Source: Solirubrobacterales bacterium (lineage in GTDB: Bacteria > Actinomycetota > Thermoleophilia > Solirubrobacterales > Solirubrobacteraceae). Taken from it: DNA of 36,896 nucleotides. The translations under genes and the position numbers were made by a program. This document shows positions 3,087 to 35,577 of this stretch, piece by piece (position 1 is the stretch's first letter; every line of letters starts with the position of its first letter). The stretch spans positions 1-36,896 of the forward strand of contig DAHUYL010000111.1 of assembly GCA_027315255.1 (NCBI GenBank). Direction: 5' to 3'. The notes beneath the pieces were generated by a model. The model was given only the letters and a program-made list of their open reading frames with translations. It ran no database searches and was not told the origin of the DNA.

Positions 3087-3087
<1 letters not shown>
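2308..3087 (-). CDS. Short-chain dehydrogenase/reductase (SDR)
   Basis: 259 residues, the usual classical SDR length. The frame stays open further upstream, but the start is best placed at GTG 3087: it shares one base with the TAG of the ATPase gene (TAGTG), and VAGLEGRVALVTGAS begins the Rossmann fold directly. Visible motifs are the TGASRR..IG dinucleotide loop, a VVANHA motif in place of the usual NNAG, Ser in FTSGQYHG and the Tyr-x3-Lys pair in PYIASK. NCIDPGPTDTGY and the C-terminal VTGQVIASDGGWS are typical. It catalyses an NAD(P)-dependent oxidation or reduction, substrate unknown. Its place between a sugar ATPase and DUF4032 suggests a sugar or polyol substrate (inference). Confidence 0.88.
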
Positions 3088-4274
<1,187 letters not shown>

Positions 4275-4295
4275 CGCCCTCATCCCTCCTGTTCG

Positions 4296-4309
4296 CGGGT
4301 GATCACCCG
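4296..4309. promoter_or_regulatory. 14-bp perfect palindrome upstream of the ATPase gene
   Basis: CGGGTGATCACCCG reads identically on both strands. It lies 22 bases upstream of the ATPase start, in the only sizeable gap between permease and ATPase. A second, 10-bp palindrome (ATGGCGCCAT) sits at 4326-4335. It could be an operator for internal control of the ATPase. Caution: GGTGATCACC also appears by codon usage inside coding DNA (near 12244). Confidence 0.3.
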
Positions 4310-4357
4310 ACCGGATTCACCGATCATGGCGCCATCCTGTCACGGTTGCGTCCGGGA

Positions 4358-5197
4358 CTATCCCTTGACCGCCCCGGCCGTAAGCCCCGACACGACCGAA
4401 CGGCGGAAGATCAGCACGAGGATCGCGATCGGCACGGCGGCCGCCGTGCTCGCGGCGAAGATCGTTCCGTACGGCGTCGTGAACTGCGAGCCGAACGTTG
4501 CGATCCCGACGGGAATCGTGCGGAAGTTGTCCTCGCTGTTGAACGACAGCGCCATCAGGAACTCGGTCCAGCACGCGGTGAAGGTGAACACGCCGGCCGT
4601 GAACAGCCCCGGCCTGGCCTGGGGCAGCACGATCGACCACAGCGCGCGCAGGGGTCCGGCGCCGTCGATCCGGCCGGTCTCCTCCATCTCCCGCGGGATC
4701 CCGAGCATGTAGTTGCGCATGATCCAGATCGCGAACGGCAGGTTGAACGCGGTGTAGGGGAAGATCAGCGCCTGATAGCTGTTCAGCCAGCCGATCTGCT
4801 TCATCAGCAGGAACAGCGGCGCGATCACCGCGATCGCGGGGAACACCGAGATCATCAGCAGGACGACCATCACCGGCAGCTTGCCCCGCATCGGGAGCCG
4901 GCCCAGCGCGTATCCGGCCATCGTCGACAGGATCAGCACGAGCGCGGTCGAGATGACCGCCACGACCACCGAGTTGAAGATGTAGCGGCCGAAGTTGTAG
5001 TTGGAGAAGGCGGTGTGGTAATTGAACGTGCTCGCGTCCTTCGGGATGAAGCTCGCGGTCGTGATCCCGGCCGGCCCCTTGAAGCTCGAGGAGATCATCC
5101 AGTACACCGGTACCAGCACGAACACGCACGTCAGCGTGGTTCCGATCGTGATCCCGTTGACGTACCGGCGCCAGCCGCTGCGTCTGCGATTGCGCAT
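4358..5197 (-). CDS. Carbohydrate ABC transporter permease, MalG/UgpE type
   Basis: 279 residues with six predicted membrane segments and the conserved cytoplasmic EAA loop in the form EMEETGRIDGAGPLRALWSIVLPQARPG. The MalG-like N-terminus (VFVLVPVYWMISSSFKGP) and C-terminus (SGLTAGAVKG) are typical of CUT1 inner-membrane partners. The start ATG 5197 shares one base with the stop of permease 1 (TGATG), and GAGGAGGGGAGC just upstream is a strong ribosome site, so the two subunits should be made in equal amounts. It forms the channel with the upstream permease and docks the ATPase through the EAA loop. Substrate is probably an oligosaccharide or alpha-glucoside given the neighbouring GH13 enzyme (inference). 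Confidence 0.93.
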   Translation of the reverse strand: MRNRRRSGWRRYVNGITIGTTLTCVFVLVPVYWMISSSFKGPAGITTASFIPKDASTFNYHTAFSNYNFGRYIFNSVVVAVISTALVLILSTMAGYALGRLPMRGKLPVMVVLLMISVFPAIAVIAPLFLLMKQIGWLNSYQALIFPYTAFNLPFAIWIMRNYMLGIPREMEETGRIDGAGPLRALWSIVLPQARPGLFTAGVFTFTACWTEFLMALSFNSEDNFRTIPVGIATFGSQFTTPYGTIFAASTAAAVPIAILVLIFRRSVVSGLTAGAVKG

Positions 5198-6153
5198 CAG
5201 CTCCCCTCCTCCCCGACCTGGGCCTTGAACACCTTCAGGAACGCCATGCAGCCGATCACGACGAGTACCGCGGTCGTGGTCGCGACCGCCGCGCCCGGGC
5301 CGAACGCCAGGTTCTGGAACATCGCCTGATAGCCGAGCACCGCGAGCGAGGTGGTCGCGTGGCCGGGTCCTCCCTGGGTGAGCACGAACGGGAGGTCGAA
5401 CAGCCCGAACGCCTGCAGCACCCGGAACAGGACCGCGAGCGCGATCGTCGGGCGCAGCAGCGGGAACGTGATCCGCCAGAAGGTCGACCAGTCCGACGAG
5501 CCGTCGACGTCGGCCGCCTCGTAGATCTCCTGCGGCAGCATCACGAGCCCGGCGAGCACGATGATCGCCACGAACGGCGTCGTCTTCCAGATATCGGCGA
5601 TGCACAGCGCGATGACCGCCGATGCGTTCGTGCCGAGGATCGTCGGATGCCCCAGCCCGAGCACCCCGAAGATCGAATCGGCGACGCCGAACGTCGGGTC
5701 GTAGATGTAGCCCCACAGCTCGGCCGAGATCACCGTGATCAGCGACCACGGGATCAGCAGCATCGCCATCATCCAGCCGCGGCCGGACGTCAGCCGCTCG
5801 AGCACGAGCGCGATCATCGTCCCGAGGATCAACTCGGCGATCACGGTCACGACCGTGTAGCCGAGCGTGAACGCGAGCGCGTAGTGCCACGTCGAGTTGC
5901 CGAGCACCAGTGAGTAGTTCGAGCTCGTCAGCCCGTTGAGCTGGAAGCCCGACCCGAGCACGTTGACGTGCTCGAAGCTGAGCAGCACCGAGAACCCGAT
6001 CGGGAACAGCGTCACCGCGCCGATGAACAGCAGCGCCGGGGCGGTGAACATCCAGCCCAGCCGCGCCATCCGCTTGCGGTGCTGGTCGGGGCGGCCCACC
6101 ACCTCGACGCTCGGCGCGTCAGGGGCGGGGGGTGCGGCGGTAACGGTGGCCAT
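5197..6153 (-). CDS. Carbohydrate ABC transporter permease, MalF/UgpA type
   Basis: 318 residues. A Pro/Ala-rich cytoplasmic N-terminus leads into the first helix (WMFTAPALLFIGAVTLFPIGFSVLLSF), with about five more membrane helices after it. The EAA loop is EIYEAADVDGSSDWSTFWRITFPLLRP, a close match to the MalF/UgpA consensus. It pairs with the MalG-type permease encoded directly downstream, with coupled stop and start. ATG 6153 has no obvious Shine-Dalgarno. A GC-rich stem-loop lies in the 90-base gap after the binding-protein gene, an arrangement often seen where the binding protein is made in excess over the permeases. Confidence 0.93.
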   Translation of the reverse strand: MATVTAAPPAPDAPSVEVVGRPDQHRKRMARLGWMFTAPALLFIGAVTLFPIGFSVLLSFEHVNVLGSGFQLNGLTSSNYSLVLGNSTWHYALAFTLGYTVVTVIAELILGTMIALVLERLTSGRGWMMAMLLIPWSLITVISAELWGYIYDPTFGVADSIFGVLGLGHPTILGTNASAVIALCIADIWKTTPFVAIIVLAGLVMLPQEIYEAADVDGSSDWSTFWRITFPLLRPTIALAVLFRVLQAFGLFDLPFVLTQGGPGHATTSLAVLGYQAMFQNLAFGPGAAVATTTAVLVVIGCMAFLKVFKAQVGEEGS

Positions 6154-6185
6154 GTCGGTTGACGCTCAGATGGCGGCGGCGGCCG

Positions 6186-6200
6186 CCCGCAGCAGGCGGG
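6186..6200 (-). other. Stem-loop between binding-protein and permease genes
   Basis: CCCGC-AGCAG-GCGGG forms a five-base-pair GC stem in the gap 6154-6243. In many sugar ABC operons a stem-loop here protects the upstream mRNA or lowers downstream expression. The stem is short and random GC pairing is possible. Confidence 0.3.
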
Positions 6201-6243
6201 AGGAGGTCAGCCCGCTGCGGACGGCCGGTGCTCTTCGGGGCGC

Positions 6244-7602
6244 CTACAGGCCCCCGCCCCCGAGGGCGCTGTTGACCGCCGAGTTCATCGAGTGCAGCGC
6301 TGCCGTCGGCGACGAGGTGCCGGACAGCGCGGCGCTGACGTTCTGGTAGATCGCCTGGCTGACCGCCGGGTAGTTCGGCGTCTGCGCCGGACGCGCCACC
6401 AGCCGCGTCCTGCCCACGATCGCCAGCACCGGGTTCTTCGCCTTGACCTGCGGCGCGTTGCGCACCGCGTTGATCGTCGGGATCTGCGAGAACTGGGTCG
6501 CCTGGATCGTCTGGGCCTGGACGCCCGTCATCCACTTGATGAACGTCAGGTCCGCGGCGATGTTCTTCGAGTGCGGGTTGATGTACAGGTTCCAGCCGCC
6601 GATGTTCGAGTAGCCCGGCTGGGACTGCCGGGCGAACGTCGGCATCGGCTCGACGCCGACCTTGCCGATCACCTTCGAGCCGGCTGCCTGCGAGGTCGAG
6701 TACGCGTAGTCCCAGTTGCGCAGGAACGCGGACTGGCCGTTCTGGAAGGCGGTCATCGCCTGCGGCTCCTGGTAGGTCGAGACGGCCGACGGGCTGACGC
6801 CGCTCGAGACCAGCGAGCGCATGAACGAGAGCGCCTTCAGCGCGCCGCCGTTGGCCAGCAGCGCCGACTTGGTACCGGCGCTGTTCAGCACGCTGCCGCC
6901 GGCATCGGTCAGGAACTCCATGAAATCGCAGGTCGCGCCCTCGTAGTCGGCGCCCTGGAACACGTAGCCGTACTGGACCTGCTTCTTGGCCTGCATCGTC
7001 TTGGCCTCGGAGACGACCTGCTCCCAGGTCGTCGGGACCGGCAGGTGATCCTTGGCGAGCAGGTCCTTGCGGTAGTAGAAGAAGCCCTGGTCCTCGAACA
7101 GCGGGGCCCCGTACACCTGTCCCTTGTACGTCGCGCCGGCGACCAGCCCGGGCGCGAACGTCGCCCAGTAGCTCGACGGCAGGTACTTGCTGAGCGGCAG
7201 CGCCAGCTGGTGGGCGCCGAACTGCGCCGGCCAGATCACGTCGCCCATGTAGACGTCGGGCCCCGCGCCGCCCGAGATCTGGGTCGTCAGCGTCGCCCGG
7301 TTCGTGTCGGTGCTGGTCGGGGCGCTGATCAGGTTGATCTTGATGTGCGGGTAGGCCTTCTCGAACGCCGTGATCCACACCTTGCGGACGTCCGGGCCGC
7401 TGGTCGAGATCGGGCTCGCCCACCAGGTGATCGTGCCCGACGTCGCGCTGCCCGGAGGCGACATGTGGCTGGTCTTGGCGGCCGCCGCGCTCGACCCGGC
7501 GAGGTCGAGCACGACCATCAAGGTTGCGAGCGACGCCGCCAGGCACAGGGCCGTCCCCAGCCGGCGCGTTGCACTCCGCTGGAGCGCATCTACTAGAGAC
7601 AC
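6244..7602 (-). CDS. Extracellular sugar-binding protein of ABC importer (SBP family 1)
   Basis: 452 residues if translation starts at GTG 7602; the frame is open to 7752, but that extension is polar and lacks signal-peptide character. From 7602 the protein begins with a basic stretch (LQRSATRRLG), a hydrophobic core and SSAAAAK, a secretion signal. The mature part opens with GTITWWASPISTSGPDVRKVWITAFEKAYPHIKI and contains GAGPDVYMGDVIWPAQF, YGAPLFEDQGFFYYRKDLL and VPTTWEQVVSEAKTM, hallmarks of the maltose/oligosaccharide-binding clan. I see no lipobox, which is unusual for a lineage whose binding proteins are normally lipid-anchored. First gene of the importer operon, divergent from the GH13 gene. 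Start codon uncertain. Confidence 0.88.
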   Translation of the reverse strand: MSLVDALQRSATRRLGTALCLAASLATLMVVLDLAGSSAAAAKTSHMSPPGSATSGTITWWASPISTSGPDVRKVWITAFEKAYPHIKINLISAPTSTDTNRATLTTQISGGAGPDVYMGDVIWPAQFGAHQLALPLSKYLPSSYWATFAPGLVAGATYKGQVYGAPLFEDQGFFYYRKDLLAKDHLPVPTTWEQVVSEAKTMQAKKQVQYGYVFQGADYEGATCDFMEFLTDAGGSVLNSAGTKSALLANGGALKALSFMRSLVSSGVSPSAVSTYQEPQAMTAFQNGQSAFLRNWDYAYSTSQAAGSKVIGKVGVEPMPTFARQSQPGYSNIGGWNLYINPHSKNIAADLTFIKWMTGVQAQTIQATQFSQIPTINAVRNAPQVKAKNPVLAIVGRTRLVARPAQTPNYPAVSQAIYQNVSAALSGTSSPTAALHSMNSAVNSALGGGGL

Positions 7603-7650
7603 TTGTGACTCGACTTTCTGATCGACGGTGAACGTGGTGGTCGAGGTGAG

Positions 7651-7697
7651 CCGACGCTCGAGCAGGCCGGAGCGGCGGGTCTGGTCCCGACGCTCGA
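7651..7697. promoter_or_regulatory. Pair of 11-bp direct repeats in the SBP/GH13 divergent region
   Basis: CCGACGCTCGA occurs at 7651-7661 and again at 7687-7697, 36 bases apart start to start, upstream of the binding-protein start. The region 7603-7854 is otherwise without a supported gene. The repeats could be binding sites for a regulator such as the nearby IclR protein. No convincing -35/-10 pair was found, so this is tentative. Confidence 0.25.
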
Positions 7698-7837
7698 TCT
7701 GACGGTTGTGCGCGTCCTCATCTCCCCTCGGCGCGATCTGCGCGCCCGGCATTCCTAGCGCCGGTGGCCGCCACTGCCCAGCGCTGTTCGGCTATGCCGG
7801 ACGGGCGCTGCCAAGACTGCGGCGCGAGCGCCTCGAC

Positions 7838-7854: not shown

Positions 7855-9603
7855 ATGACGATCCGACCGATGCCAGACCTCGAGCCACGTACCGGCGAGT
7901 TGCTCGCCGGCGGAGCTGCGCCCGCCGCTTCGCCGCACCCGCTCGCGCGTGACGCGCGTCGCCGCTGGTGGCGGAGCGCCGTCATCTACCAGATCTACAT
8001 CCGCAGCTTTGCGGACGGGAACGGCGACGGCGTCGGCGACATCGCCGGCATCCGCTCGAGGTTGGGCTACCTCGCCAGCCTCGGCATCGATGCCCTGTGG
8101 ATCAACCCCTGGTATCCGTCGCCGATGAAGGACGCGGGCTACGACGTCGCCGACCTGCGAGGTATCGATCCGCGGTTCGGGACGCTGGCCGAGGCGACCG
8201 CGATGATCGCCGAGGCTCACGAGCTGGGCCTGCGCGTCCTGCTCGACCTCGTCCCCAACCACCTCTCCTCGGAGCATCCGTGGTTTCAAGCGGCGCTCGC
8301 CGCCGGGCACGGCTCCGAGGAACGCGCGCGCTTCATCTTCCGCCCTGGTCGGGGCACGGATGGCAGCGAGCCTCCCAACGACTGGCAGAGCACGTTCGGC
8401 GGTCCCGCGTGGACACGTGTCACCGAACCCGACGGCGTCCCGGGGGATTGGTACCTGCATCTGTTCGCGCCCGAGCAGCCCGATCTCGACTGGTCGAGTC
8501 CCGACGTCCGCGCCGAGTTCGAGCGGACGATGCGGTTCTGGTTCGATCGCGGCGTCGATGGCTTCCGGATCGACGTCGCCCACGGCCTCGCGAAGGCGAA
8601 CGGCCTGCCCGACGTCGGTTCGCTCACCTGGCCGCCGACGCCCGGCGACCCGGTCGAGCACCCGCACTGGGACCTGGACGGGGTCCACGAGATCTACCGC
8701 GGCTGGCGGGCGCTGGCCGATTCCTACGCCGATCCGCGCGTGTTCGTGGCGGAGGCGTGGGTGATCGGCCGGCCCGAGCGGCTTGCCAGGTACGTACGCG
8801 CCGACGAGTTGCACACCGCGTTCAACTTCGACTTCCTGTTCACGCCGTGGCTGGCGGCGGATCTGCGCTCGACGATCGACGACGCGATCGCCGCGCACGA
8901 AGCGGTCGGCGCCGCGCCCACCTGGGTGCTGTCAAACCACGACGTCGCGCGCGAGGTCTCGCGCTACGCGCGGCCGCAGGGCGTCCGCCGGCTCAGGCAC
9001 CTGAGCGATCTGCTCGACCTGCCGGCCGATTTCCACCTGGGGATGCGCCGCGCGCGAGCGGCGGCCCTGCTGATGCTCGCGCTCCCGGGCAGCGCCTACG
9101 TCTACCAAGGCGAGGAGCTCGGCCTGCCCGAGGTCGAGGACATCCCCGACGAGCTCCTGCGCGATCCGACGTGGGAGCAGTCCGGGCGCAAGGACCGCGG
9201 TCGCGACGGCGCCCGCGTGCCGCTGCCCTGGTCCGGTGAGCAACCGCCGTACGGCTTCAGCCCCGCTGGGGCGACGGCCGCGCCGTGGCTCCCTCAGCCC
9301 GGATCGTGGCGCGAGCTGTCCGTGGAGGCACAGACCGGCCGGGTTCGCTCGATGCTCGAGCTGTACCGCGCAGCGCTCCGGATCCGGCGCCGGAACCCGG
9401 CGCTCGGCGACGGCCGGCTCAGCTGGTTGCCGTCGCCCGACGGTGTCCTCAGCTTCGCCCGGGAGCCGCATTTCACGTGCATCGTCAACCTCGGCGCCGA
9501 CCCGGTGCCGGTGCCGCCTGCCAGTCGCATGCTGCTCTGCAGCGGCGCGCTCACCTCGGCCGCGGAGTTGCCGTCGGATACGGCGATCTGGCTCGAGCGC
9601 TGA
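7855..9603 (+). CDS. GH13 alpha-glucosidase/alpha-amylase family enzyme
   Basis: 582 residues. The (beta/alpha)8 GH13 signatures are in order: AVIYQIYIRSFADGNGDGVGDIAG near residue 42, conserved region I DLVPNH (131-136), region II GFRIDVAH with nucleophile Asp240, region III VFVAEAW with acid/base Glu300, and region IV LSNHD with Asp363. The C-terminal part is a short beta domain. Length and the DGNGDGVGDIAGI motif fit oligo-1,6-glucosidase/alpha-glucosidase-like members rather than large secreted amylases. No signal peptide is seen, so it should hydrolyse imported alpha-glucosides in the cytoplasm. It is divergent from the sugar importer and followed by a convergent IclR regulator, which supports one catabolic unit. 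An alternative ATG lies at 7870. Confidence 0.92.
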   Translation: MTIRPMPDLEPRTGELLAGGAAPAASPHPLARDARRRWWRSAVIYQIYIRSFADGNGDGVGDIAGIRSRLGYLASLGIDALWINPWYPSPMKDAGYDVADLRGIDPRFGTLAEATAMIAEAHELGLRVLLDLVPNHLSSEHPWFQAALAAGHGSEERARFIFRPGRGTDGSEPPNDWQSTFGGPAWTRVTEPDGVPGDWYLHLFAPEQPDLDWSSPDVRAEFERTMRFWFDRGVDGFRIDVAHGLAKANGLPDVGSLTWPPTPGDPVEHPHWDLDGVHEIYRGWRALADSYADPRVFVAEAWVIGRPERLARYVRADELHTAFNFDFLFTPWLAADLRSTIDDAIAAHEAVGAAPTWVLSNHDVAREVSRYARPQGVRRLRHLSDLLDLPADFHLGMRRARAAALLMLALPGSAYVYQGEELGLPEVEDIPDELLRDPTWEQSGRKDRGRDGARVPLPWSGEQPPYGFSPAGATAAPWLPQPGSWRELSVEAQTGRVRSMLELYRAALRIRRRNPALGDGRLSWLPSPDGVLSFAREPHFTCIVNLGADPVPVPPASRMLLCSGALTSAAELPSDTAIWLER

Positions 9604-9969: not shown

Positions 9970-10830
9970 TCAGGCCGCGAGTGCGTGGGAACGCATCGCG
10001 GCGGTGATCCTCGCCGCCGCGCCGACCGCGAGCTTGACCGTCCGGTACAGGTCGAGCGCCGGGCTCGCCGATCGCGCCACCACCGTCAGCGCGGCGGCGG
10101 CCTCGCCCGCGTCCTCCCTGACAGGGGCGGCGACGCACAGCGCGGCCGGCGAGCCTGCCGGCGGGTCGTACGCCCAGCCGCACCGCCTCACCCGTGCGAG
10201 CTCCGCCGACATGTCCGCGAGCGTCGCATGCCGCGTCAGCACGCGCCCCGTCTCCCACAGGTCAGCGACCTCGATGTCGGAGCGGGCTGCGAGCAGCACC
10301 CGCGAGGGCGCGCTGTCGTCGACCGGTGCGGTGCTTCCCGCCGGCCTGCCGCCGGCGGGCGCCCGGCCGCGATCGTCGCGTCCGTGACCGCGCTCGTAGC
10401 GGCCGACGCAGATGATCCGCCCTCGCTCCCAGGCGAACAGGCTGGCGGCAACTCCGTGAGCCTGCGCCAGCTCGCGGATGATCGGCCGCGCGTGGGCGCT
10501 GAGCCCGTCGGTACGGAGCAGCACCGTGGCGAGCGAGATGTTGCGCCAGCCGAGGCGGTAGCGCCCGTTGCCGACGCGCTGCAGGAGCCCGATCTCCGTG
10601 AGCGTCGCGAGCGCCTCGTGTGCGAGCGACTTGCCGATTCCGAGCCGCTGGGCGGCAGCCGTGACTCCCCACTCCGGCTCCTCGAGCGTGATCAGCTCGA
10701 GCACGTCACCGGCGCGAATCAGCGTTCCGAGCATCGCTTCACCATCGGTCGACCTGCGTGCTGCCACCTGCGCCTTCTCATCCCGCCTCCTCTCTCCGGC
10801 AGCCCGCAGCCAGTGGCTGAGGGCTGACAC
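9970..10830 (-). CDS. IclR-family transcriptional regulator
   Basis: 286 residues from GTG 10830, which follows AAGGAAGAA. The frame extends to TTG 10881, but that would run through a palindrome; ATG 10734 (MLGTLIRAGDVLELITLEEPE) would give the usual family length of about 254. The winged helix-turn-helix reads WGVTAAAQRLGIGKSLAHEALATLTEIGLLQRVGNGRYRLGWRNISLA. The C-terminal effector-binding domain follows (AHARPIIRELAQAHGVAASLFAWERGRIICVGRYERG ... YDPPAGSPAALCVAAPV). A low-complexity Arg/Gly/Pro insert sits in the middle. IclR proteins respond to small metabolites. Its location makes it a candidate regulator of the GH13 and importer genes, or of the divergent sigma operon (inference). Confidence 0.88.
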   Translation of the reverse strand: MSALSHWLRAAGERRRDEKAQVAARRSTDGEAMLGTLIRAGDVLELITLEEPEWGVTAAAQRLGIGKSLAHEALATLTEIGLLQRVGNGRYRLGWRNISLATVLLRTDGLSAHARPIIRELAQAHGVAASLFAWERGRIICVGRYERGHGRDDRGRAPAGGRPAGSTAPVDDSAPSRVLLAARSDIEVADLWETGRVLTRHATLADMSAELARVRRCGWAYDPPAGSPAALCVAAPVREDAGEAAAALTVVARSASPALDLYRTVKLAVGAAARITAAMRSHALAA

Positions 10831-10862
10831 TTCTTCCTTAAGGACGTCCGACGGGGCGCGGC

Positions 10863-10880
10863 TGACGACGCCTGTCGTCA
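10863..10880. promoter_or_regulatory. 18-bp inverted repeat between IclR and sigma genes
   Basis: TGACGAC-GCCT-GTCGTCA: two perfect 7-base arms around a 4-base spacer. It lies 21 bases upstream of the sigma gene's likely -10 element and about 33 bases upstream of the IclR start used here, a position suited to control of both divergent genes. The bound protein is unknown; IclR autoregulation is the simplest guess. Confidence 0.45.
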
Positions 10881-10900
10881 ATCCGGGCCCGCCGATCGTC

Positions 10901-10913: not shown

Positions 10914-11897
10914 ATGCGCGATCCGGGGGAGGAGGACGGCGCCCTCGTCGAGGCTGCTCGCGAGGGCGATCGGCAGGCGTTCGCGCTGCTCTACCACCGC
11001 TACAAGCCAGACGTGTGGAACCTCGCCTACCTGACGCTGCGCGACACCGCGGAAGCTGAGGACTGCCTTCAGGAGACGTTCGTGAGAGCCCTGCGCTCGC
11101 TGGGCTCGGGGACCCCGGTCGAGGCGGCGAGGCCGTGGCTCTTGACGATCTGTCGCAATGCCTGCCTCGACCGGCTGCGATCGGCCAAGCGCCGGGGCTA
11201 CGTCTCGTTCGATGCCGAGGACGCGCCGGAGCCGCCGTTGCCGGCCATCGACGAGGACGCGCGCGTCGACCTGCACCGGGCGATCGCGCGGCTCGAGCCC
11301 GAGGATCGCGAGGCATTCGTGCTCGTCGACGTACTCGGCTACCGCAGCCACGAGGCGGCCCAGATCCTCGGCCTGGCCGCGCCGTCGACGCTGCGCTCGC
11401 GGTTGAGCCGCGCCCGCCGTCTGATCGCCCCCGCGCTGACCGGCGCGCGAGCGGACCCGGCCGCCGAGATCTGGGGCGTCTACCACCAGCCACCGGACAA
11501 TGCGGTCGTCGCGTGCTTCCGGTCCGGTCCCGGCCCTGGCGCGCGGACGGCGGCCGAGCAGATCGACCTCAGCAGCGAGCTCGAGCGCCTTCGCGAGTCG
11601 GCCGGTGCGGTCCGCGGCGCCGTCGGGCTCGTCGACTTCTTCGACCGCCTCGACGTTCGGATTCCGCCGATGCTGCGAGTGCTTGCGGTGATCGACGGCG
11701 CACTCGCGCGGACCCCCGCCAGTGCGCGCCACTGGCTGGCCGATCATCCACGCTGGCAGGTGCGCAGCGCCGGCTCGCACGCCGGCTGGCTGCTCGCGGT
11801 CGAGACCCTGTTGCGGGCCGCCGGCGCCGACCGAGACCAGGCCGCGCTCGACGCGCTCGACGCACCGACGCCGTTCCTGTGGACCCACGCCGGATGA
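10914..11897 (+). CDS. ECF sigma factor with C-terminal IS630-transposase-like domain
   Basis: 327 residues, versus about 170-200 for a plain ECF sigma. Region sigma-2 covers roughly residues 8-94 (AFALLYHRYKPDVWNLAYLTL, DTAEAEDCLQETFVRALRSL, WLLTICRNACLDRLRS). Region sigma-4 covers 115-172 (AIARLEPEDREAFVLVDVLGYRSHEAAQILGLAAPSTLRSRLSRARRLI). The rest, 183-302, aligns with the DDE domain of IS630-family transposases: GVYHQPPDNAVVAC matches GLYLxPPxxAVVLC, and RHWLADHPRW followed at the family spacing by GWLLAVE matches xxWLAxHPRW...SWLNxVE. The first catalytic Asp is lost (CFRSG for CVDEK); Asp261 and Glu297 remain. ATGA overlap with the anti-sigma gene. It should direct RNA polymerase to a small regulon when freed from the anti-sigma. 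Confidence 0.9.
   Translation: MRDPGEEDGALVEAAREGDRQAFALLYHRYKPDVWNLAYLTLRDTAEAEDCLQETFVRALRSLGSGTPVEAARPWLLTICRNACLDRLRSAKRRGYVSFDAEDAPEPPLPAIDEDARVDLHRAIARLEPEDREAFVLVDVLGYRSHEAAQILGLAAPSTLRSRLSRARRLIAPALTGARADPAAEIWGVYHQPPDNAVVACFRSGPGPGARTAAEQIDLSSELERLRESAGAVRGAVGLVDFFDRLDVRIPPMLRVLAVIDGALARTPASARHWLADHPRWQVRSAGSHAGWLLAVETLLRAAGADRDQAALDALDAPTPFLWTHAG
11460..11819 (+). mobile_element. IS630-transposase-derived segment fused in frame to the sigma gene
   Basis: This part of the sigma gene encodes residues 183-302. It resembles the C-terminal catalytic part of IS630/Tc1-mariner DDE transposases but is shortened by loss of most of the segment between the first and second catalytic Asp. I see no terminal inverted repeats or TA duplication around it, so it is not an insertion but an old, domesticated or decayed domain. 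The comparison is from memory of the family consensus, not a database search. Confidence 0.65.
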
Positions 11898-13539
11898 TCG
11901 ACCGCGACGATCATTGCTGGGAGGCCGCGCTCGACGGCGAGCTGACCGACGAGGTCCGGGCGCACCTGGCGAGCTGCACCGGCTGCTCGCGCGTGGTCGA
12001 TCGGGTCCTGAGTGCGACGATGGCGATCCAGTCGGAGATTCCCCCACCGCCGCCGGGGCTGGACGTGCGGGTGCTCGCCACGCTCGAGCGCGAGCGCTCG
12101 GACGCACTCGAGCTGGAGCGCGCCCGTCGGCCGCGCCGCGGGCTTCCGCGCGTGCCGGCGCTGCGGGTGCGCTCGCTCGGCGCCCCGGCGCGGCACGCGC
12201 TGGCGGTCGGGATCACCGCAGCAGCGGTGCTGATCGCCGCGCTGGTGATCACCCGTCCGTCCGGGCTGGTCGCCGGCAGCAGTCGTTCGGCCGTGCCGAT
12301 CACGCCGCTGTCGGCGCAGTGCTCCGGCGGCAGCCGCATCGTCGTCGCGGGCGCCTGGTACGGCGCCGAGGCAACCGAGTTCGCCAAGACGCTCGGCCGC
12401 TTCCAGGAGCAGACGGGGATCCAGGTGATCTACGCCTACGACACCCATTCGATCGCGACCGTGCTCGCGTCGCTCGTCAAGAGCGGCTGCGCGCCCGACG
12501 TCGCGCTGCTGCCGCAGCCGGGGACGATGGACGACTTCGTCCGCGCCGGCGAGCTGCAGCCGCTCGCGCCGATCGTCGGCGACCTCGTGCGCAGGAACTA
12601 CACGCCCGCGTGGGAGCAGCTCGGCAGCGTCGGCGGCAAGCTCTACGGTGTCTGGTTCAAGGGCGCGGCGAAGTCGATGATCTGGTACCGGCCGTCCGCA
12701 TTTCGCAGGGCCGGGATCGCGCACCCGCCGCGCACGTGGGCGCAGCTGCTCGCCGACGCGCGCAGGCTGCGGGCCGTCGGGATCCAGCCGTTCGCGATCG
12801 GCGGCGCCACCGGCTGGACGCTGACCGACTGGTTCGAGAACGTGTACCTGGCGACGGCCGGTCCGGTCCGTTACCAGGAGCTGGCCGACAACAGGCTCAA
12901 GTGGACCGATCCGAGCGTCACCCGGGCGCTGCGAGTGCTGGCGGAGATCTTCGGGAACCGGTCGCTGTCGGGGCCCCTGTCGGTCGCTGCGCGGACGACC
13001 TTCGCCGAGTCGGTCGACCAGGTCTTCGGCAGGCATCCGACCGCCGCGATGGTGTTCGAGGGCGACTTCGTCCGCAGCTACCTGCCCGCGTCGCTGCCGT
13101 CCGGTGGGGCTCGCTTCTTCGACTTCCCGGCGCCTGCGCCGACCGCGACGCCGGCGCTCGAGGTCGGCGGCGACGTGGCCGTGCTGTTCACGAAGCGGCC
13201 AGGCGCGGAGCGGCTGATCCGGTTCCTCGCGACGCCCGCCGCCGGGCAGATCTGGGCCCGCGACGGCGGCTTCATCTCGCCCAACCGCAACCTCCCGCTG
13301 GGCGACTATCCGGACCCGCTCAGCCGCAAGCTCGCCCAGCGGCTCGTGGACGCTGCGACCGTCCGGTTCGGGCTCTCGGATCAGGAGCCGACGGCGTTCG
13401 GCTCGGACCCCTACCAGGGGATGTGGCTGCTGTTCCAGCGGTTCCTCGCCGACCCGCGCGACATCGGCGGCCTCACGCGCGAGCTCGAGGCGGGCGCGAC
13501 CGCCGCCGCGGCCTGCGTCAAGGCAGTCGGCGGCGACTG

Positions 13540-13543
<4 letters not shown>
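11894..13543 (+). CDS. Anti-sigma factor fused to an extracellular ABC-type sugar-binding domain
   Basis: 549 residues from ATG 11894, overlapping the sigma stop. Residues 1-45 form a zinc-binding anti-sigma domain: Cys8, then LDGELTDEVRAHLASCTGC with His24, Cys28 and Cys31 (H-x3-C-x2-C). A Pro-rich and basic linker leads to a single membrane helix at about 101-120 (HALAVGITAAAVLIAALVIT). Residues 145-549 are a full solute-binding fold: AWYGAEATEFAKTLGRFQEQTGI, APDVALLPQPGTMDDFVRAGEL, GVWFKGAAKSMIWYRPSAFRRAGI, PRTWAQLLADARRLRAVGIQPFAIGG and AAMVFEGDFV. It probably holds the sigma at the membrane and responds to an external sugar or to contact with a permease. Four outer cysteines (SAQCSGG, KSGCAP, AACVKAV, final Cys) could form disulfides. 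Confidence 0.92.
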
Positions 13544-16539
<2,996 letters not shown>

Positions 16540-33690: not shown

Positions 33691-35577
33691 TCACAGGACG
33701 ATCGTGTGTCCGGCCCGGCGGCCGACGAAGAACGGTCCCAACCGCTCGATGTAGCGGGCCGTCTGCTCGCTCGAGCGCATCGCCTTGACGAGCCGGCTGA
33801 GCTGGTCGGGACGTGGCCCCAGCAGCCCGATCACGAACTCGTTGTCGGCACGGTCGAGGCCGAAGCACTCGAGCCGGATGTCGTCGGCGTAGCCGGCCTG
33901 CGCGAACGCCGCGCCGATGCGGCCGTGCTCGCCGAGGATTCGCGCCCGCTCGCTCCCGGGCAGCCGGTAGAAGTCGGCGGTCCGGCGCAGCGGGTACCAG
34001 ACAGCCCAGCTCGATCGCGCCGCGACGAGCTTGCGTCGCGGCGCCTCGAGCAGCCAGTCCTCCAGCGCCGGCTCGTGGCCCGAGCCGTACGTCCGGCCCA
34101 GCATCGCCAGTCCGGAGTCCGGCCGAAGTCCGATCCCGGACGTCTCGGCGGCGAGCTCGCGGACCGTCGAGACGAGCCGGTCGGGGTCCTCGCTGATGAC
34201 CAGCACGGCCGTCGTGCAGACGTCGGTCGCGCTCTCGTACACGACCCCCTCGGCGCCGCTGCGCCGCAGCGCGGTCAGCAGCTCCGCCGATGACGCCGGG
34301 CCCGTGAACGCCTGCAGCTCGATGAACAGCCGCCGGTCGAGCGCCTGCACCGAGCCGTCGGCGAGCATCGCGCCACGCTCGCGCGCGTCGCGCGGGTCGC
34401 CTGCGCAGTAGAGGTCGCGATCGGGCGCGATCCCCCAGCGGCGGGCGACCGCCTCGAGCTGGGTGGTGACCGGCCACTGGTCGGCGCGGGGCTCGCCCGA
34501 GTACTGGCGGCTCGCGCCCTTCAGCGGCACGGTGCCCGTGTTGTCGCCGACCCGACTGATCGCCTCGACCTCATCGCCGGTCAGGAGCTCGCCTGAGGGG
34601 ACGCCTGCGAGCTCCGCACGCTTGTCCTCGACCGGGCGCCCCTCGGGCCCCGGTTCCTGGACGAGCGTCGGGACCACACACGCGACCGGCTCGTGCGCGA
34701 GGTTCCACGCGCACGCCAGTTGCAGCGGCGTCAAACCGTGGCGGGCGCCGATCTCGCGGATCTGCTCGAGCTTGGCGTGGGCGGCCTCGACCCAGCCCGC
34801 CGGCCGGAAGCTGCGGTGGTCGCCGGCGGGGAAGCGATGCCCCGGCCGCACATCGCCCCAGAACACGCCCCCGTGGTCGACCACGCGCGTGATCACCCCG
34901 ACTCCGTGCGCCGCGGCCGCGGGCAGCGCCAGCGTCGCCGGCCACGGCTCGAGCGGGTTGAGGATCACCATCGCCCAGTCGATCAGCTCGCCGAACCGCT
35001 CGAAGCATCCGATCAGGTCGAGCACGAAGCCGTTGTCCGGACCGGGCGCGATCCCCAGCCGGCGGGTCAGGCCGGCGTCGCGCAGCGCCTGCATCCCCAT
35101 CCAGACCGCCTCGCTCTCATACCCGATGCGGTCGGGGTTGTGCAGCAGCAGCACGTCGAACGAGTCGACCCCGCACCGTGCGAGGCTCTGCTCGGCCGCC
35201 ATCCGCAGGTAGCCGGCGTACTGGCCGTGGCCGCGCAGCTTCGGGTCGGTGAACCGCTGGTAGCCGGCGGCGCCCTCCCGCCGCCCGTCGTAGAAGTCGT
35301 GTCCGACGGCGCCGATCAGGCAGTAGGAGTCGCGCGCGACGCCCTCGAGCGCGCGGCCGAGCATCCGATCGGCCTCGCCGCAGCCGTACACGTCCGAGGT
35401 GAGCACCGTCTTGACGTCGGGTCCCGGGCGCAGCAGCCGGGCGAGACGGTCGGGCTCGAGCGGCACGCCGAACGGCATGAACCCGCTCCACGCGCCGATC
35501 GCCGTGGTGGTCGGCTCGAGGCCGCCGTCGGCGCGATCGGCCGCAACGGCGCCGGGCGACGCCTGTACTGGATTCAT
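33691..35577 (-). CDS. Aldo/keto-reductase-like domain fused to a chlorite-dismutase/HemQ-like domain
   Basis: 628 residues from ATG 35577. Residues about 22-350 are an AKR barrel: TSDVYGCGEADRMLGRAL, SFDVLLLHNPDRIGY, GVITRVVDHGG and LTPLQLACAWNLAHEPVACVVPT. Of the AKR tetrad, Tyr64 and His146 are in place, but the Asp five residues before Tyr is Leu and the usual Lys position reads LIGAVGH, so normal carbonyl reduction is doubtful. Residues about 412-628 match the Cld/HemQ family: WYPLRRTADFYRLP, ERARILGEHGRIG with His551 as probable heme ligand, ECFGLDRADNEFVIGL and ARYIERLGPFFVGRRA. HemQ enzymes decarboxylate coproheme to heme; other members act on chlorite or peroxide. The fused substrate is unknown. 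It starts 13 bases after YceI. Confidence 0.82.
   Translation of the reverse strand: MNPVQASPGAVAADRADGGLEPTTTAIGAWSGFMPFGVPLEPDRLARLLRPGPDVKTVLTSDVYGCGEADRMLGRALEGVARDSYCLIGAVGHDFYDGRREGAAGYQRFTDPKLRGHGQYAGYLRMAAEQSLARCGVDSFDVLLLHNPDRIGYESEAVWMGMQALRDAGLTRRLGIAPGPDNGFVLDLIGCFERFGELIDWAMVILNPLEPWPATLALPAAAAHGVGVITRVVDHGGVFWGDVRPGHRFPAGDHRSFRPAGWVEAAHAKLEQIREIGARHGLTPLQLACAWNLAHEPVACVVPTLVQEPGPEGRPVEDKRAELAGVPSGELLTGDEVEAISRVGDNTGTVPLKGASRQYSGEPRADQWPVTTQLEAVARRWGIAPDRDLYCAGDPRDARERGAMLADGSVQALDRRLFIELQAFTGPASSAELLTALRRSGAEGVVYESATDVCTTAVLVISEDPDRLVSTVRELAAETSGIGLRPDSGLAMLGRTYGSGHEPALEDWLLEAPRRKLVAARSSWAVWYPLRRTADFYRLPGSERARILGEHGRIGAAFAQAGYADDIRLECFGLDRADNEFVIGLLGPRPDQLSRLVKAMRSSEQTARYIERLGPFFVGRRAGHTIVL

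Follow-up and report, generated by a model that had tools for sequence, protein, structure and literature searches.

The subject of this work is a sigma/anti-sigma gene pair in 36,896 nucleotides of a Solirubrobacterales soil bacterium (assembly GCA_027315255.1, contig DAHUYL010000111.1; this whole stretch is referred to as the window). A gene for an extracytoplasmic function (ECF) sigma factor is followed by a gene for a 549-amino-acid protein, hereafter the fusion, in which one open frame joins an N-terminal anti-sigma-like domain, through a single membrane helix, to a complete solute-binding protein (SBP) of the sugar type. We consider it likely that an SBP captured from a transporter serves as the outer sugar sensor of a membrane anti-sigma factor, and that the sigma factor, once freed, induces its own operon together with sugar-uptake genes. 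A first-pass annotation, made from the sequence alone, had read the gene as a zinc-finger anti-sigma factor with a whole SBP as sensor; this interpretation is supported, while the binding of a ligand and the binding and release of the sigma factor are its predicted parts.

The fusion protein and its relatives

The outer part of the fusion is an SBP by profile and by fold. Pfam SBP_bac_1 matched residues 163-451 (E 2.5e-20, 74.1 bits against a cut-off of 26), and SBP_bac_8 was also above its cut-off (1.9e-9). AlphaFold, run with 48 sequences, modelled the full chain with a mean predicted local distance difference test (pLDDT) score of 85.0, and residues 131-549, mostly above 90, form a confident SBP. 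Its top Foldseek match was the glucose/galactose-binding protein 2b3b (E 3.4e-22), and AcbH, chitin-oligosaccharide SBPs and xylobiose SBPs were among the other top matches; a failure of the outer region to fold as an SBP, which the first-pass annotation had named as a way in which it could be wrong, was not seen. When 71 positions that are at least 95% conserved across 43 standalone SBPs were compared, the window SBP kept 64 and the other four fusions in this comparison kept 65/71, 64/71, 60/66 and 62/71, which points indirectly to ligand binding by the outer domain.

The start codon of the fusion (ATG, 11894) overlaps the TGA of the sigma gene (10914-11897). The hydropathy maximum of the fusion (2.54) lies at 102-120, with five lysine and arginine residues in the 20 residues before this stretch and two in the 20 after it, and an excess before the stretch was found in 6/6 fusions counted as complete for this comparison (window, L033, L034, L064, L191 and L192; L153 and L203 are interrupted at contig ends). 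Because of this excess, the sequence suggests a topology with the N-terminus inside and the SBP outside; the region after the helix was judged by eye for a signal-peptidase site.

The fusion gene is not an artefact, because eight fusion proteins occur across two actinobacterial orders, and the idea of a lone oddity was rejected for the same reason. A join of two genes near position 12300, against which the first-pass annotation had warned beforehand, does not appear: the GC content at codon position 3 is even, at 0.90-0.97 in every part, and a relative in the same order, G068, carries the same fused gene with 64% identity over residues 4-549. The fusion survey followed this SBP family; the genome profile searches scored only the best few candidates per genome, and the class and the phylum were sampled. 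A profile of three sigma factors with their C-terminal tails (E up to 1e-30) matched 4/232 genomes of the order, namely that of the window (G000) and the relatives G068, G038 and G174, and the fusion was found in the same four; the SBP profile matched 18/232. In the class sample the sigma profile (E up to 1e-25) matched 36/399 genomes, these four and 32 others whose matches stop by profile position 194 and thus cover the ECF core. The start of the fusion overlaps the stop of the sigma gene in G068 as in the window. In G038 the two genes are split between contigs that have 62 bases in common at their ends, and in G174 they lie at two contig ends between which no overlap was found, so that the N-terminus of the G174 fusion is out of sight.

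A contig-wide scan, in which the best 80 of 569 relatives were kept, and a search of the order of G455 gave four further fusions, L064 (genome G455, Acidimicrobiales), L191 (G725), L192 (G522) and L203 (G591), the third incomplete at its C-terminus and the fourth at its N-terminus. In that order, 13/298 genomes had a match; no further fusion was found in the phylum sample (396 genomes, 24 with a match), and no relative in virus contigs. A sigma-like gene lies directly upstream of the three Acidimicrobiales fusions with a visible start (L064, L191 and L192); that of L064 matches Sigma70_r2 (3.2e-7), and the matches in L191 (regions 2 and 4) and L192 (region 4) stayed under the Pfam cut-offs. 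Pfam gave no match over the N-terminal domains of these three fusions. As a separate observation, the sigma-like gene and the fusion of Acidimicrobiales lie divergently to a gene of the SPFH/Band_7 type (L064, 6768-7922, minus strand, 1.3e-9; L192, 2144-3265, plus strand, 2.1e-7; by eye the same type of arrangement at L191, 10478-11412), and GGGGTTGC-N15-AACGAC was seen by eye at equal spacing upstream of the L191 and L192 sigma-like genes, possibly a promoter type of their own.

A tree built from 52 SBP domains places the eight fusions on one side of a branch with support 100/98 that was present in 100% of 200 bootstrap trees, and a quick tree of 55 rows gave this branch a support of 98. The closest standalone SBP to the fusion clade, L100, comes from the genome of L064. 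The SBP was probably captured onto an anti-sigma factor one time.

A cysteine pair also sets the fusions apart. The 279 loci surveyed gave 141 distinct SBP rows, 139 of which reach position 199. Cysteine was found there in nine rows, which stand for eight proteins because two rows are one G068 gene; these are precisely the eight fusions, and none of the other 130 rows has it. Cys143 and Cys199 occur together in 5/5 fusions of one alignment (A3), in which position 143 is a gap in 37/43 standalone rows. Both residues were read by eye in L191, L192 and L203; the automated survey put a different residue at 143 in L191, and its alignment fell short of 143 in L064. One standalone SBP (L056) has a cysteine at 143 without Cys199. 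In the AlphaFold model the two sites fall just ahead of the first-lobe strands 149-153 and 203-206, which makes a disulfide between them plausible. A second pair, Cys541 and Cys549, was seen in three fusions only (those of the window, of G068 and of G174), in a comparison in which many standalone rows are trimmed ahead of that region.

The N-terminal domain has the features of a class I (ASDI/zf-HC2) anti-sigma factor in part. C8, H24, C28 and C31 are at the positions given by the first-pass annotation, the Hx3Cx2C motif (H24, C28, C31) is likewise present in G068, and the gene adjoins an ECF sigma gene. NCBIfam NF052375 ('antisigma') matched residues 12-110 (E 1.7e-8) with 34.7 bits, far under its equivalog cut-off of 100; the G068 ortholog gave 2e-9. 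We call the domain anti-sigma-like because this score and that of zf-HC2 fall under their cut-offs. The zinc motif was not found in the N-terminus read for the G038 fusion, nor were zinc ligands found in L064, L191 and L192, and the zinc finger was rejected as a required feature. Of the zinc-finger anti-sigma factor claimed earlier, the motif therefore stands, while the family assignment falls short of the profile cut-off and the zinc ligands appear dispensable among relatives. According to section 6 of PMC7406223, zinc and non-zinc class I anti-sigma factors are intermixed and non-zinc members are common.

The sigma partner and the putative promoter sites

The gene upstream of the fusion encodes an ECF sigma factor, with sigma regions 2 and 4, followed by a C-terminal tail. 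Three such tails together matched IS630 transposases of related genomes in hhalign (E 9.3e-14, probability 98.1), and single tails gave 1.3e-11, 7.8e-12 and 1.9e-5, whereas the best of 30 column shuffles gave 0.032 and the sigma core gave 0.87. The tail is common to the window, G068 and G038 orthologs. No Pfam DDE_3 match was found in the tails of three members at E up to 10, and the first catalytic Asp, at what we take to be its position in IS630, is absent from all three, leaving the D-D-E triad incomplete. We are moderately sure, from these alignments, that the tail is a decayed IS630 transposase domain. The AlphaFold model of the sigma factor was poor (mean pLDDT 66.2), no transposase was among the 50 Foldseek matches listed for it, and these models neither bear out nor refute such an origin. 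A literature search aimed at ECF sigma factors that carry a transposase domain gave no paper.

In the four intergenic regions of the order, TCGTCAAT-N14-CGTC or near forms of it were read toward the sigma gene and, on the opposite strand, toward the divergent gene. The common form TCGTCA-N16-CGTC was found at 8/8 expected positions (both divergent genes at four loci; 4/4 ahead of sigma), other spacings from 8 to 24 gave one match, at 9, and none of 5000 shuffles per intergenic region had the form on both strands; these figures are descriptive only, because the motif had first been noticed by eye in these very regions and was then tested on them. Genome-wide, a loose pattern matched too often (G000 has 72 such places, and 17 for the reversed form), and the strict form was used in its place; two or more loose sites occurred anywhere in 6/100 window shuffles. 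The strict pattern occurs once in the 4.3 Mb of G000, at the sigma promoter, and twice in G038, both at the sigma locus. Its single occurrence in G174 faces the ABC (ATP-binding cassette) operon, and the sigma-facing site there reads TCGTCAAA. G068 has six occurrences, including those of the sigma gene, of the ABC operon and at the start of a GH13 gene, where an ATG in the GH13 frame follows 11 nucleotides later. The reversed strict pattern, used as a control, was absent from all four genomes.

In G068, G038 and G174, the sigma gene is divergent from an ABC operon that contains a standalone, paralogous SBP of the sensor family (operons called by a Pfam match of the ATPase in G174 and by similarity of permease and ATPase in G068 and G038). 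Thus, the putative promoter sites would link the sigma factor to its own operon and, in these three relatives, to the divergent sugar ABC operon. The first-pass annotation had proposed signalling without a transporter; this holds for the signalling itself, but the system appears to be built to control one. The features of the window are collected in the table.

Features of the fusion system and of its surroundings in the window
Feature	Position	Strand	Basis
Sugar ABC operon: ATPase, two permeases, own SBP (context only)	3087..7752	-	similarity to relatives' operons
GH13 alpha-glucosidase-like enzyme (context)	7855..9603	+	Alpha-amylase 9.9e-96
IclR-type regulator	9970..10830	-	IclR_C 6.3e-13, HTH_IclR 1.1e-9; start GTG 10830 by eye (mechanical open reading frame from 10881)
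Putative same-type promoter in the divergent direction, toward IclR-type gene, TCGTCAGC-N14-CGTC	10843..10868	-	conserved site
Putative sigma-dependent promoter of sigma operon, TCGTCAAT-N14-CGTC	10875..10900	+	conserved site
ECF sigma factor, 327 amino acids, C-terminal extension	10914..11897	+	Sigma70_r2 1.8e-17, Sigma70_r4_2 5.3e-11
Sigma tail, residues 184-327 (144 residues), probably degenerate IS630 transposase DDE-like	11463..11894	+	hhalign
Anti-sigma / membrane helix / SBP fusion protein	11894..13543	+	549 amino acids, one open frame
Anti-sigma-like domain, residues 1-97, predicted cytoplasmic	11894..12184	+	C8, H24-x3-C28-x2-C31; NF052375; zf-HC2 sub-threshold
Membrane helix, residues 98-120	12185..12253	+	AlphaFold helix 98-118; hydropathy peak 102-120
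Region between Cys143 (12320-12322) and Cys199 (12488-12490)	12320..12490	+	proposed disulfide, post-helix strap to first SBP lobe
Complete sugar-type solute-binding domain, residues 149-549	12338..13540	+	SBP_bac_1, Foldseek, conserved columns

Proposed mechanism, alternatives and surroundings

The mechanism that we propose builds on tool results for the architecture and the fold, the clade of the SBPs, their cysteine pattern, the overlap of the two genes and the promoter sites. In the absence of a signal, the N-terminal domain would keep the ECF sigma factor at the membrane. A sugar, perhaps an alpha-glucoside, would bind and change the SBP, and this change would travel via the short strap, tied to the first lobe by the proposed Cys143-Cys199 disulfide, into the membrane helix and on to the anti-sigma domain, so that the sigma factor would be freed by conformational change or by regulated proteolysis. 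The freed sigma factor would then transcribe from promoters of the TCGTCAAT-N14-CGTC type. Its own operon would be a target everywhere; further targets would be the ABC operon for uptake that is divergent from it in three relatives, the GH13 gene in G068 and the divergent IclR-type gene in the window. A fuller picture, to which we give about an even chance, is that of a self-contained nutrient-sensing module: a transporter SBP captured once on an anti-sigma factor and fitted with a lineage-specific disulfide strap would convert the binding of a sugar directly into release of the sigma factor; the latter would transcribe its own operon and also, in relatives, the genes for the transporter and the enzyme, all from a single type of promoter; a dead IS630 domain would have been added to the sigma factor in one lineage; and the same sensor would work with a different N-terminal domain and sigma factor in Acidimicrobiales.

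Several observations weigh against a sugar-sensing anti-sigma factor that controls uptake genes. The zf-HC2 match of the window fusion (E 0.0038, 17.7 bits) is under the cut-off of 22.2 bits, and the helices ahead of residues 98-118 were modelled at low confidence. The Acidimicrobiales fusions have a different N-terminal domain, a weakly recognised sigma-like gene and no TCGTCA-N16-CGTC-type site. Besides the descriptive nature of the promoter figures, three of the six strict sites in G068 lie away from the expected positions, two on other contigs and one inside the GH13 coding sequence, and no site matched at the ABC operon and the GH13 gene of the window itself; since these lack a site, the sigma factor may act through IclR in the window. 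Furthermore, the transporter SBP of the window belongs to another family than the sensor SBP, and a relative of the window GH13 gene was found at only 5/80 family loci (the best 80 of 569 relatives kept in the contig-wide scan, with flanks up to 9 kb).

The sequence does not fix the polarity of the response, and a ligand-bound SBP might instead stabilise the sigma/anti-sigma complex, so that loss of sugar would free the sigma factor for scavenging uptake. An uptake system as the predicted regulon agrees with this, but the presence of this site at an adjacent, degradative GH13 gene in G068 would fit substrate induction better, and we regard the opposite polarity as rather unlikely. It is also conceivable that the SBP docks on an ABC permease like its transport paralogs and that transport activity sets the state of the anti-sigma factor. 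At three of the four loci of the order, the ABC operon next to the sigma gene does encode a paralogous SBP; in the window genome, however, the best other SBP is 28% identical and the local permeases are 25-35% identical to those of the relatives, which leaves such reporting on a transporter improbable.

Another reading is that the fusion is just a membrane-anchored transport SBP whose N-terminus no longer controls the sigma factor. The zinc motif is indeed gone in the G038 and Acidimicrobiales fusions, but class I members of this kind are common, as cited above, the start/stop overlap with the sigma gene is found in both the window and G068, sigma and fusion are retained together in 4/4 genomes of the order, and L064, L191 and L192 each have a sigma-like gene upstream; we therefore consider this explanation very unlikely. 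An assembly error or frameshift fusing two genes might be suspected in a draft genome of 231 contigs (completeness 92.2), but it can practically be dismissed, given the fused gene in G068, the fused frames in L064, L191 and L192 and the even codon-position GC.

With regard to the substrate of the proposed sugar sensor, the window GH13 enzyme has a counterpart near the sigma gene in G068 (47% identity to L033, 8823-10715), and GH13 or alpha-glucosidase genes neighbour standalone SBPs in a Streptomyces and a Ruegeria relative. These neighbours hint at alpha-glucosides as the ligand, a weakly supported substrate because of the 5/80 loci, on which a general GH13 linkage of the SBP family was rejected. 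The ABC operon of the window, whose SBP (6244-7752) matches SBP_bac_1 at 3.6e-36, was not supported as the transporter of the sensor's family on the identities given above. Two other genes of the window, both on the minus strand, were noted in addition: a secreted-looking protein (13540-16539) combines a nucleoside hydrolase domain (IU_nuc_hydro 1.6e-10) with an Ig-like AIR9 repeat (1.6e-17), and one frame (33691-35577) encodes an aldo/keto reductase (3.7e-19) and then a chlorite-dismutase-like domain (9.2e-18), an unusual pairing.

Comparison with known systems

The first-pass annotation had held the architecture to be undescribed, and no SBP on an anti-sigma factor was found in the literature searched, which included the accessible parts of PMC7406223, PMC8999054, PMC10880074 and PMC8103513; the main ECF classification lay outside that search, and an earlier description there is possible. 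A close parallel is the polysaccharide-sensing RsgI/SigI system of Clostridium thermocellum, in which a membrane anti-sigma factor carries a sugar-related sensor on the outside, pairs with a sigma factor and acts through proteolytic release, as described in the accessible part of PMC12203970. The fusion would work like this and other membrane anti-sigma factors with sensors outside, and its release step could likewise be proteolytic. RsgI sensors bind polysaccharides and the partner is of the SigI type, whereas the fusion has a whole ABC-type SBP as its sensor and an ECF sigma factor as its partner; no RsgI-type Pfam match was found in the window at E up to 1, and the partner fits ECF models. 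With class I ECF anti-sigma factors the fusion shares the Hx3Cx2C motif, the single membrane helix and the gene position directly after an ECF sigma gene, but its outer part is a complete SBP, for which no example was found in the accessible part of PMC7406223. ECF52 (SCO4117) also has an outer carbohydrate-binding domain, but, according to the part of PMC8999054 available, this is located on the sigma factor itself, in contrast to an SBP on the anti-sigma factor.

Standalone ABC SBPs of the same family, from Streptomyces and other Actinomycetota, share the fold and most of the strongly conserved residues with the sensor. By eye, most of these transport proteins start like lipoproteins; Cys199 is absent from them. 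The fusion would represent a transport protein turned receptor, with standalone relatives at hand for comparison. For many sigma/anti-sigma pairs the input signal is not known; the fold of the sensor proposed here is well understood, can be purified and retains conserved residues of its family, and the regulon can be predicted from the sequence beside it, so that input and output are both testable. If the proposal is correct, the binding protein might be exchangeable and the fusion a possible scaffold for biosensors.

SBP-type sensors also occur on histidine kinases and chemoreceptors, where the output is phosphorylation or chemotaxis. A binding-protein fold as the outer sensor is common to these and to the fusion, but the output of the fusion would be a sigma factor, and it would thereby provide a direct path by which a small molecule bound outside the cell leads to release of the sigma factor, and neither a transporter nor a kinase would take part in the signalling.

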